From NCBI RefSeq assembly GCF_009674625.1, contig NZ_WKJQ01000001.1, positions 992,001-1,056,000 on the forward strand: a DNA stretch of 64,000 nt. The letters are read 5' to 3'. The notes below the pieces were generated by a model. It saw only the letters and a program-made list of their open reading frames with translations, was not told where the DNA came from and ran no database searches. This document shows, piece by piece, positions 30,757 to 47,023 of the stretch; the stretch's first letter is position 1, and each line of letters opens with the position of its first letter. The position numbers and the translations under genes are program-made. The stretch is from Haloferax marinum (GTDB taxonomy: Archaea; Halobacteriota; Halobacteria; Halobacteriales; Haloferacaceae).

Positions 30757-31084
30757 GAAACGACGTAAGTTTGGAACTGTCTTCCATCTTCGGGTTTGGG
30801 ACAGTGGACGGGGTTGGTCGCGTCGAAATCATCGAACGTGGACAGGATGGGCGTGACATATACAGAGGGTGAGTTCAGCACAGTGCCAATGGTTGTTTCG
30901 GCGAATAATCACGAAATGACAGTGCGAGAACCGCGTATTGACCGCTGAATACTCTACTTGAATGAAATTTGTCTGGGTCGCATATCGTACAATAATTGTG
31001 TGATTTCCGCATCTCGCTAATCCAGACAAAAGTCCACTGACCAATAATAAATAATATTATATAATTTAAAATGGATGTGTGTGT
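30757..31084. other. AT-rich gap of 328 bases before the small zinc protein
   Basis: No gene recognised. From about 30950 the base composition falls well below the window average and ends in AATAATAAATAATATTATAT, the promoter of the next gene. The change in composition suggests acquired DNA. Confidence 0.55.
31056..31064 (+). promoter_or_regulatory. Strong TATA box of the small zinc protein
   Basis: ATTATATAA, 21-29 bases before ATG 31085, within a 30-base A/T run. It is the most AT-rich promoter in the window. Confidence 0.6.
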
Positions 31085-31345
31085 ATGGGAAGAACGCAAC
31101 TCATATGTAAAAAGTGCGATGGGAGGTTTTCACCACATAAACATGAAATGGCAAAAGGAGCAGCCGTCGGCGCTGCAGCAGCCGCGGGTGCGATAAAAGG
31201 GGGCACCTATGGGATAGTCTCGGGGTCACTTCCTGGAGGAGCGACAGGTGCAGGAGTTGGTGCAGCATTAGCGGGAGGGGCGGTGTTCTTAGGTGCTAAA
31301 AGCACGACAATGTGTCCACACTGTGACAAAGTCCAATTTTTCTGA
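31085..31345 (+). CDS. Small zinc-ribbon protein with a glycine-zipper core
   Basis: 86 residues. A CxxC pair at the start (CKKCDGRFSPHKH) and another at the end (CPHCDKVQFF) can bind one zinc together. Between them lies a hydrophobic Gly/Ala-rich stretch (about 25-75) with glycine-zipper repeats (GGATGAGVGAALAGGAVFLG), which would pack in a membrane or as an oligomer. Codon and base use are less GC-rich than its neighbours and it sits in an AT-rich patch next to an IS end, so it was probably acquired. I know no assigned function. Confidence 0.7.
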   Translation: MGRTQLICKKCDGRFSPHKHEMAKGAAVGAAAAAGAIKGGTYGIVSGSLPGGATGAGVGAALAGGAVFLGAKSTTMCPHCDKVQFF

Positions 31346-31460
31346 CGCGATTGTAACTTCTCCCTGAGTTTAGCAGTGTGAATGGCATATTCTGAAGATT
31401 TCTGAAAAACCACATTATCTGTACGTGACACAGATACCGGAACTGTTGCCTGACCGACTT

Positions 31461-31520
31461 GCGCGCTCTATTCAGCACGCCGTCAACGACCTATCAGTTA
31501 ACCATACGTTCAACAAAGCC
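31461..31520. mobile_element. Remnant of an IS-like terminus
   Basis: These 60 bases match the left end of the 549-bp element (45469-45528, opposite strand) at 44 of 60 positions without gaps, counted by eye. The outer tip reads CAACAAAGCC, the inverse of GGCTTTGTTG. No second end or transposase was found near it, so it is a solo remnant. Confidence 0.55.
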
Positions 31521-44759: not shown

Positions 44760-44868
44760 GTCGCCGAGCCGAACTATTCGTTCACCGTGACCCTCACCGA
44801 GAGAAGACAGTTCTGCGCGCCAAGGGGTCTCTACCGAAACCTGAAGGCTTACATTTGATTGGTTGCGA

Positions 44869-45444
44869 GTGACTGGTGTGACCCTCCCCGTGCTCGTGCC
44901 GCTTTCCGACCTCGCCCTCGGAATCTATCCCGACTTCTCGTGGCTCTCGTCACTCGTCGAGACGGCCACCGGGTGGTTCGGGCTGGCAATCATCTTCGTC
45001 TACTCGTTCCTCATCGCCTTTGCCCTCCCAGGAGTGAGTGAGATCGTCCTCTTGGCCCCCCTCAACCTCGGCCTCTCGGAGACTGCGAAACTGGCGGTCA
45101 TCATCGTCGTCAGCGGTGCCGGAAAATCCGCCGGAAGCGTCTTCGCGTTCTACATCGGCCACGAGACGAAAGAGTCCGGAATCGTCGAGCGGGCGCTCGA
45201 ACGACTCCCCGTAGACGTGATGGGGTGGACCGAGCGACGAGCCATCGAAATCGCCCAGAAGTGGGGCTACGCCGGTCTCGCCGCCGCGCTCTGCGTCCCT
45301 GGGTTTCCCGACACGCTCTCGATTTACGCCTTCGCCGTCCTCGAAGACGACTACCTCAAGTTCGCCGCGGCGACGTTCGTCGGGTCGGCCGGCCGCCTCA
45401 TCGTGACCGTCGTCGGCGTCGAGGCCGCACTCGCGTTCCTCTGA
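44869..45444 (+). CDS. VTT/YqaA-type membrane protein
   Basis: About 191 residues with four or five helices. The middle (SEIVLLAPLNLGLSETAKLA; GAGKSAGSVFAFYIGHETK) and KWGYAGLAAALCVPGFPDTL with a Gly/Pro re-entrant loop match the SNARE-associated/YqaA family of lipid-moving proteins. GTG 44869 is chosen since GGCTTACAT lies about 24-32 bases before; a TTG at 44863 is the alternative. The 549-bp element is inserted 24 bases after its stop. Confidence 0.8.
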   Translation: MTGVTLPVLVPLSDLALGIYPDFSWLSSLVETATGWFGLAIIFVYSFLIAFALPGVSEIVLLAPLNLGLSETAKLAVIIVVSGAGKSAGSVFAFYIGHETKESGIVERALERLPVDVMGWTERRAIEIAQKWGYAGLAAALCVPGFPDTLSIYAFAVLEDDYLKFAAATFVGSAGRLIVTVVGVEAALAFL

Positions 45445-45460: not shown

Positions 45461-45468
45461 GTTTCTGT
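45461..45468. repeat. Left 8-base direct repeat (target duplication)
   Basis: GTTTCTGT immediately before the left end of the 549-bp element. The same 8 bases follow its right end. Confidence 0.7.
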
Positions 45469-46017
45469 GGCTCTGTTGAAATCATCAGTCGCTGATAGTT
45501 TGTCGAAACCGTGCTGAATACAGCGCGCATATCTAACAATCCACCATTCCCACCGATTAAACCGGTTTACTGTAGCTGCTTGCGTACCTCACTGATGTAC
45601 TCCTGCTTGAGTCGGTGCGAGGCATGTCTAGTACTGCCTTCGATCTCGTCGCTATCGACCCACTTGATAACGACCATTTGTCTAGGATATCTCGAAGTTC
45701 GACGTGTTGCAGCGTTCATTCCATTCTTTGTGAGTTCTACCCCGTAATCCTCTCGAAGCCGACGACGTACCTCAACACCCCAGAGAGCCTTACCTTCAGC
45801 GTCTGCTAGCACTTTCAGTATCGTCTTCTGATTTTTTGTCAAACTGGTCAAGTCCATGGCTCCATTGTTCCCCATCGTTTCTATACGTACAACTGACATT
45901 ATGTTCAATCTTTCTGCAACATGGGGAGCAAAGAAACAAATAGTGAATCCTTCGCTGAACTCACCCTCTGTATGTTGCACGCCACACCTGTCAAACTCAG
46001 AGGGTTTCAATAGAGCT
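45469..46017. mobile_element. 549-bp IS-like non-autonomous element carrying a regulator gene
   Basis: Left tip GGCTCTGTTGAAATC (45469-45483). Right tip GGTTTCAATAGAGCT (46003-46017), whose inverse matches the left at 12 of 15 bases. Both sides carry GTTTCTGT, an 8-base duplication. Tips of this form and 8-base duplications are those of IS6-type elements. Inside there is no transposase, only a PadR-like gene on the minus strand, in DNA less GC-rich than its surroundings. Confidence 0.7.
45567..45875 (-). CDS. PadR-like winged-helix regulator inside the 549-bp element
   Basis: 102 residues from ATG 45875 (alternatives 45899 and 45857). SLTKNQKTILKVLADAEGKA, then LWGVEVRRRLREDYGVELTK, then a stretch rich in Arg and aromatic residues with a final amphipathic helix (HRLKQEYISEVRKQLQ). 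The start and helix pattern match PadR-type HTH proteins, although the wing is short. It is the only gene in the element. The reading frame is open to 46010 inside the right tip, but the TATA-like GAACATAAT suggests the later start. Confidence 0.6.
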   Translation of the reverse strand: MGNNGAMDLTSLTKNQKTILKVLADAEGKALWGVEVRRRLREDYGVELTKNGMNAATRRTSRYPRQMVVIKWVDSDEIEGSTRHASHRLKQEYISEVRKQLQ

Positions 46018-46025
46018 GTTTCTGT
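46018..46025. repeat. Right 8-base direct repeat (target duplication)
   Basis: GTTTCTGT immediately after the right end, identical to 45461-45468. It is five bases before the next stop codon (46030-46032), so the insertion fell in a gap between two convergent genes. Confidence 0.7.
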
Positions 46026-46029
46026 CGTC

Positions 46030-46893
46030 CTACATCGCCTCTTCGAGAGACGGTAACGGACTCACTGGACAGAACATCGGCGTCTTCTCGAGCAGTTCTC
46101 GCAAGATGTGGACGTGACCCGCGCCGACGACGACGAGCACTCGTTCGTCTTCCGACTCGATTGCTCGCCAGAGGTTGTGCACCATCCGGAGATTCCGGTC
46201 GTACCACGTCGCAACCAGCTTCGGCCCCCCGAAGTTATTTTCACGTCCCCAGCGAAGTGACTCCCCGAAGAACCCAGCCGATTGGACTCCGAGGTTTCGC
46301 TCTCGGTTTTGCCACAGGAGGAACTCCTGAATCGACGAGGTGGCAATCTGTTCTGTAACCTCTCGCTCTAACTCGGAGACGTCGAGCTGGTCGAACTGTA
46401 TCTTCTCTTCGGGTTCGAACCCATCTTCTGCGAGTTCTTCGTACGCCTCGTTTGCGAGCGTCATCGGATAGTCGATGGGGAACACTCGTTCGTGGTCCAG
46501 TCGGTCAGCCAATCGAAAACCGAGTTGGACGACCTCACTCCGGCACTCCGTCGTCAGTTCGTTCCGGGACGGGTGTGGAGGCTCGATTTCTTCTTCGGCG
46601 TCGTACGACCGCTTGCCAGACCGATACTCGTCGTAGATGGCGTTCACCTCGTCTGCGCGGTCGTACGGCCGTTCGACGGCAACCCGGTCGGGACGCCACC
46701 CCTCTAACGCGTCCACGGTGGTTCGCAACTGGGCCTGTCGTTCGGGGTGGAGTACGTCGTCTACGTCGAGTTGGGCGACGTCTAATCCAGGATTGTCCAT
46801 GTGATACGTCCCGAGGAGCATCACCTCGACCGGACCCGACTCACATCGAGGCCACCCTTCTGGAGGGGTGTCAGACGACTGTTGCCGACTCAT
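46030..46893 (-). CDS. DUF5694/TraB-like protein
   Basis: 287 residues. The N-terminus VEVMLLGTYHMDNPGLDVAQ and the C-terminal VVVGAGHVHILRELLEKTPM match DUF5694, a relative of TraB/EreA-like GxxH fold enzymes; two GxxH motifs (GTYH, GAGH) are present. It is cytoplasmic with no signal. The substrate is unknown. ATG 46893 is chosen of three close candidates (46911, 46905, 46893). Confidence 0.8.
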   Translation of the reverse strand: MSRQQSSDTPPEGWPRCESGPVEVMLLGTYHMDNPGLDVAQLDVDDVLHPERQAQLRTTVDALEGWRPDRVAVERPYDRADEVNAIYDEYRSGKRSYDAEEEIEPPHPSRNELTTECRSEVVQLGFRLADRLDHERVFPIDYPMTLANEAYEELAEDGFEPEEKIQFDQLDVSELEREVTEQIATSSIQEFLLWQNRERNLGVQSAGFFGESLRWGRENNFGGPKLVATWYDRNLRMVHNLWRAIESEDERVLVVVGAGHVHILRELLEKTPMFCPVSPLPSLEEAM

Positions 46894-47023
46894 ACACACA
46901 CTCATCAGCATTCTGCCATGAATCTACGGGTCGGCCGCCACGGTATCTGCATACGCGTCGCCCGTTTCGACAATCTCGAGAATCAGAATCGCTGGTTATC
47001 TCCTCACATGGCGTATCTCTAGT

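Follow-up and report, generated by a model that had tools for sequence, protein, structure and literature searches.

A single-gene mobile unit in Haloferax marinum that probably belongs to an integron-like cassette system moved in trans by an IS5-family transposase

Haloarchaea exchange genes freely, and the routes by which their small accessory genes (toxin-antitoxin pairs, regulators, small enzymes and orphan ORFs) move among them are poorly explained. A 549-bp segment of Haloferax marinum, which contains one small gene and lies between two convergent genes, raises this question in a compact form: how was it inserted, and does it belong to a larger family of mobile units? We consider, with a probability of roughly 0.8, that it is a single-cassette unit of an integron-like system that is moved in trans by an IS5-family transposase. 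This larger cassette system is not visible from the window (the whole 64,000-nucleotide stretch of DNA that was analysed) alone.

A 549-bp insertion with target duplication

The insertion occupies positions 45469-46017 of the window and is bordered on both sides by a perfect 8-bp duplication. Its tips are inverted repeats, namely GGCTCTGTTGAAATC starting at 45469 and AGCTCTATTGAAACC, reversed, ending at 46017. The following features were identified:

45461-45468, no strand: left copy of the 8-bp target duplication, GTTTCTGT, read directly; the site is empty in genomes G006 and G007
45469-45537, plus strand: left end, consisting of the IS5-type tip GGCTCTGTTGAAATC and half of a 93-bp site (site positions about 41-91, at 45486-45535)
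45567-45875, minus strand: cassette gene of 102 aa, stop codon included; supported by homologues, an AlphaFold model and Foldseek
45954-46017, plus strand: right end, consisting of half of a 93-bp site (site positions about 3-64, at 45954-46013) and the inverted IS5-type tip
46018-46025, no strand: right copy of the 8-bp target duplication, GTTTCTGT, read directly

Both ends were detected by our model of unit ends (END) and by our model of the 93-bp site (SITE). At the left end, the E-values were 2.6e-17 (END, 45471-45530) and 4.2e-5 (SITE, 45486-45535), and at the right end they were 1.1e-7 (SITE) and 5e-12 (END, minus strand, 46015-45959). The flanking genes (44863-45444, plus strand; 46030-46911, minus strand) converge on the element. 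In the congeneric genomes G006 and G007, the same two genes, which show about 81-86% DNA identity to those of the H. marinum genome, abut each other with neither insert nor duplication. These empty sites identify 45469-46017 as an insertion. An earlier note on this DNA had described a 549-bp insertion with an 8-base duplication, and its coordinates, inverted-repeat tips and flanking GTTTCTGT copies were confirmed; retention of both duplication copies in element-free relatives, which it had named as evidence to the contrary, was not observed. No transposase is present inside 45469-46017, again as claimed, and the 102-aa gene is the only cargo. The G+C content of the element is 47%, compared with 62% for the window. 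The segment is a single-cassette, non-autonomous mobile unit with no transposase of its own.

A search of the H. marinum genome found one copy of the full element, and the 24 further matches cover only the ends, mostly over 40-70 bp. The expectation of a dispersed family carrying the same regulator was therefore not borne out: the cargo occurs once in this genome, and the parts that recur are the ends and an inter-cassette site, associated with other genes. Approximately 25 occurrences of the ~60-bp ends surround different genes in this genome. The ends are also present in all 15 genomes of the genus and on plasmids from many haloarchaeal genera. The window contains another unit of this family at 30816-31520 (minus strand), which is older: its tips have decayed and its flanks show no duplication (4 of 8 bases). 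Its cassette ORF of 88 aa (31079-31345, plus strand) contains CxxC pairs resembling those of a zinc ribbon.

The cargo gene

The start of the 102-aa ORF was set by alignment with its closest homologue. The protein has no significant match in Pfam, PADLOC or NCBIfam. An AlphaFold model, built from an alignment of nine homologues (mean pLDDT, 83), consists of helices and a two-strand wing, as in winged-helix proteins, and a Foldseek search of this model against the PDB gave haloarchaeal RosR as the best match (E 3.7e-4), followed by PadR-family proteins and LmrR. Judging from this predicted fold, the cargo is probably a DNA-binding regulator. The label 'PadR-like' given in the earlier note thus stands at the level of the fold and fails at that of sequence profiles: the protein shares the winged-helix fold of RosR (H. 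salinarum) and PadR-family regulators, but differs from them in having no significant sequence-family match.

Close homologues of the cargo are found in Halorubrum vacuolatum (78-79%) and Halohasta litorea (63%), around which the END and SITE models detected no recognisable unit ends; decayed tips spotted by eye near these genes were not significant by either model. No other unit carrying the focus cargo was found, and the nearest case is a distant homologue (30%) in genome G163, which lies within a unit bearing these tips (L040, 1354-2023).

Tips of the unit and of IS5-family transposons

The sequence GGCTCTGTTGAAATCCT (or a variant with one mismatch) is present at both ends of elements that encode IS5-family transposases (PF01609/NF033579) and are flanked by perfect 8-bp duplications. 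The focus unit shares this tip and the 8-bp duplication with six transposase-bearing elements (L111, L120, L121, L122, L126 and L239). The outer tips are thus those of an IS5-family, 8-bp-duplicating element, so an IS5-family transposase acting in trans most likely inserted the unit. No IS5-family transposase of the matching type was detected in the H. marinum genome with the PF01609 or NF033579 model, and the helper can therefore only be inferred. Judged from its tips, mobilisation in trans by an IS5-family transposase would be the natural reading of the focus unit, which, since it lacks a transposase, is at most a non-autonomous derivative of the IS5 family. The six same-tip elements range from 1195 to 1765 bp in size, and a passenger ORF lies beside the transposase gene in at least L111 and L126.

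Target duplications are not peculiar to the focus unit. Exact duplications (8/8) flank 11 of 56 tip-bounded units and at least 7 of 8 bases are duplicated in 17 of the 56, compared with 5 of 3025 mismatched flank pairs used as a control; the duplications exceed chance.

ISH1 is a member of the IS5 family. It is listed with an 8-bp duplication (PMC10264941). Haloarchaeal ISH1-like IS5 elements (NF033579) have the 15-20-bp tip and 8-bp duplication seen in the focus unit, and cassette half-sites, or an end of the cassette type, are present in some copies. They differ in possessing their own transposase, which the focus unit lacks, and beyond about 20 bp the ends of cassette units are unlike plain IS5 ends. 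Two other candidates were rejected. An IS1595 partner is absent from the H. marinum genome, and no matching tips were found except neighbouring cassette ends. A 1436-bp element guessed to be ISH6 contains a HicAB-like pair and a lipoprotein-like ORF, and no transposase.

A directional 93-bp site

The model of the ends revealed partial copies within many units, and when these were aligned, a site of 93 bp emerged, with the consensus TGCTGAATACACCCTCTGTATCTTGCACGCCGCTTCTGACAGCGTTTGGGGAGGTTTCTGCGGGCGTGCTGAATACAGGGCGCGAGTCGGTCA across 135 sites. At its left end, a unit has the IS5-type tip followed by site positions from about 40 to 93; at its right end, site positions 1 to about 60 precede the tip. 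Between the ends lies at least one gene, with whole 93-bp sites as dividers; many units contain two or more cassettes, and the focus unit represents the one-gene case. Internal sites lack the outer tips and have one conserved centre across genera. Similarity between sites is higher within a genome than from one genome to another (linker, 0.69 versus 0.63; 0 of 200 permutations). RNAalifold analysis of the alignment detected no conserved hairpin, and an attC-like hairpin was rejected for lack of conserved pairing. Inspection of the consensus found no paired RYYYAAC/GTTRRRY core sequences. No Rfam match was found in three arrays or the focus locus.

Cassette arrays and their contents

The fetched loci contain 165 full sites, and the longest runs comprise 12 sites in L217 and in L222 and 9 in L208. 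Neighbouring sites within 3 kb are co-directional in 106 of 106 pairs, one or two of which were counted twice in overlapping loci (p about 2e-32 for a fair coin). The median site-to-site distance is 608 bp, and the longest ORF covers a median of 73% of a cassette, compared with 34% after shuffling. The orientation of the ORF relative to the site is random (50:52). The arrays thus combine co-directional sites with mostly single-gene cassettes, which are shuffled as described in the next section.

The cargo is diverse: 97 cassette ORFs match 56 Pfam families, nearly all of them once, including HicA toxin, NUDIX, SnoaL, cupin, metallo-beta-lactamase fold, PAS/histidine kinase and oxidoreductases. 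Defence-like genes are rare among the cassette ORFs. HicA/HicB-like toxin-antitoxin pairs are a recurrent cargo (L012, 2027-3462; L011, 2059-3819; L212, 5935-6387).

Multi-cassette units are physically linked to the transposons in several ways. Perfect duplications also surround multi-cassette units (L157, L196 and L212), which indicates that a row is transposed in one block. In L126/L235, an IS5 transposon that also carries a passenger gene, an IS5 tip forms one end and a cassette-type end the other; the flanks are CCTAGCCC. L239 is an IS5 element with the duplication CAACAGTC and internal cassette half-sites. In L248, the order is tip, cassette, whole site, broken transposase and tip. At 333-2979 of L111 (G012:C649), an IS5 element with the perfect duplication CCTCACTA is located within a row of three whole sites, indicating that IS5 transposons also jump into arrays.

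Shuffling of cassettes

Near-identical cassettes occur in differing orders or neighbourhoods within species and between genera, and the breaks of identity fall inside the site. Two Haloarcula marina strains (NZ_CP100405 and NZ_CP100408) share a pair of cassettes, at 99.4 and 99.7% identity, that differ in order and neighbours between the strains; the match breaks off at site positions 14 and 84 in one cassette and at 83 and 16 in the other. Another cassette is the second of two in L147 (G003) and stands alone in L195 (G013), and further sets shared across contexts are L148/L153/L196 and L166/L192. A cross-genus pair, L183 of the genus Haloferax and L208 of Haloprofundus, is 92% identical. Among the cross-context pairs that could be resolved (several could not), most downstream breaks fall at positions 9-21. 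Upstream breaks are less well defined (64-83), in part because sites and unit ends resemble each other in that part. The Haloarcula case in particular suggests that a cassette may run from about position 84 of one site to about position 17 of the next, with positions 18-83 as a separate linker. Duplicated cassettes that are 95% alike lie adjacent in one array (L216, 10554 and 11014), and copies that are 92% alike lie in two oppositely oriented arrays on one plasmid (L208, 4426 and 15814).

Distribution and neighbouring genes

At a threshold of E 1e-6, the site model matched 221 of 392 Halobacteria genomes, representing 62 of 84 genera; per-genome counts are lower bounds, with up to ten candidates scored in each genome. 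In a sample of 393 genomes from the phylum, all 48 positives belong to the same order. The site had no match in phage records, and no exact 18-mer match was found in IMG/VR contigs, a narrow test confined to exact 18-mers. No recombinase gene was consistently present beside the arrays in 22 array regions, nor did an IntI integrase recur in the fetched array neighbourhoods. A TnpB-type (IS200/IS605) gene is located beside or inside 7 of the 22 array regions, two of which are the same region, and this recurrence may reflect only shared islands. These genes lie at L210 3217-4467, L213 1040-2278, L215 6084-7481, L221 8369-9619 and L222 11304-12635, with two copies in L226.

Proposed mechanism and alternative explanations

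We propose that an IS5-family transposase, supplied in trans by an element now absent from the H. marinum genome, would have inserted the unit between the two convergent genes. The half-sites at the ends of this unit correspond to sequences that, in other units, are united into one whole site separating consecutive genes. A unit is thus a row of cassettes, mostly with one gene each, whose sites all have the same direction, and the tips move such rows as a whole, as the perfect duplications around multi-cassette units show. Exchange within the site adds, removes and reorders cassettes; the breaks, seen by comparison, are best resolved near positions 17 and 83. Both the trans-acting IS5 transposase and any dedicated recombinase are putative enzymes, and homologous recombination between sites could also be the source of the shuffling. 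A further step is more tentative, and we would place it somewhat short of even odds: the arrays may represent a gene-capture system of the haloarchaea's own, unrelated to IntI/attC, in which a dedicated recombinase would act at defined points of the 93-bp directional site and an IS5-family transposase would spread the arrays.

The strongest alternative, a real possibility if a slightly disfavoured one, is that the unit is an ordinary mobile insertion cassette (MIC), namely an IS5 derivative in which a regulator replaced the transposase, with internal sites that are remnants of fused elements and with homologous recombination acting in place of any dedicated machinery. This explanation accounts for the IS5-type tips and 8-bp duplications, and is consistent with the lack of a conserved recombinase gene beside the arrays and with the greater similarity of linkers within genomes, as gene conversion would give. 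However, the missing outer tips and the single conserved centre of internal sites across genera argue against an origin of these sites by independent decay of abutted ends. Linkers that are on average only about 63-70% alike would also be poor substrates for homologous recombination, and neighbouring sites share a single direction throughout, with as many as 12 in a row.

A true integron array (CALIN) with attC sites and IntI acting in trans would likewise explain the repeated directional sites with inverted arms, the predominance of one gene per cassette and the shuffling. It is nevertheless very improbable, given the absence of attC core sequences and of a conserved hairpin noted above, the random gene orientation and the transposon tips with target duplications that bound the units; moreover, a published survey of archaeal integrons does not mention Halobacteria (PMC9668308). 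Finally, a non-autonomous IS6-family element, as first proposed in the earlier note from an 8-bp duplication and GG...TGTTGAAA tips that resemble the 8-bp repeats, tip G dinucleotide and cTGTt motif described for IS6 (PMC7986276), is scarcely tenable and is refuted as far as tips can show, because no IS6 transposase (PF13610) is present in the H. marinum genome, IS6 elements of related genomes with delimitable ends have the tips GGCACTGTCTAGTTAAG or GGTAGTGTTCAGATAAG and not GGCTCTGTTGAAATCCTCAG, and the exact tip is found on IS5-family elements.

Relation to known systems

Considered alone, the focus unit has IS-type inverted-repeat ends, a target duplication, a passenger gene and no transposase, and its nearest class is the MIC. 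MICs and transporter ISs (tISs), which lack and contain a transposase, respectively, similarly place IS ends and target duplications around passenger genes, and their mobilisation in trans is, as here, a deduction. In the haloarchaeal system, however, many cargoes share one type of end, and rows are divided by the conserved 93-bp directional site. In its working, the nearest system is the integron cassette array, yet the site lacks attC features. Integron arrays and CALINs, including archaeal ones (PMC9668308), also consist of rows of mostly one-gene cassettes with co-directional sites and inverted arms; their cassettes are shuffled, and many arrays likewise have no adjacent recombinase. The present arrays depart from them in having a site unlike attC, genes of both orientations, boundaries formed by IS5-type tips with 8-bp duplications, and half-sites as unit ends.

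The open-access literature that we searched contains no description of this cassette system (most subscription papers and all bioRxiv preprints lay outside the search), and the system, which is widespread in salt-loving archaea, is apparently undescribed so far. As a platform for gene capture, transposon-bounded directional cassette arrays across most genera of this class would parallel the integrons of bacteria. The 93-bp site provides a search model able to list very many cassettes, many of them containing unannotated small genes, and poses a testable question, namely which agent cuts and joins near positions 17 and 83. MITEHsal2 of Halobacterium salinarum is 411-413 bp long with an 8-bp or 6-bp duplication (PMC10264941), and its size and duplication length, compared by description only, would be compatible with those of a unit holding one cassette. 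Ends of cassette units are present on H. salinarum plasmids.
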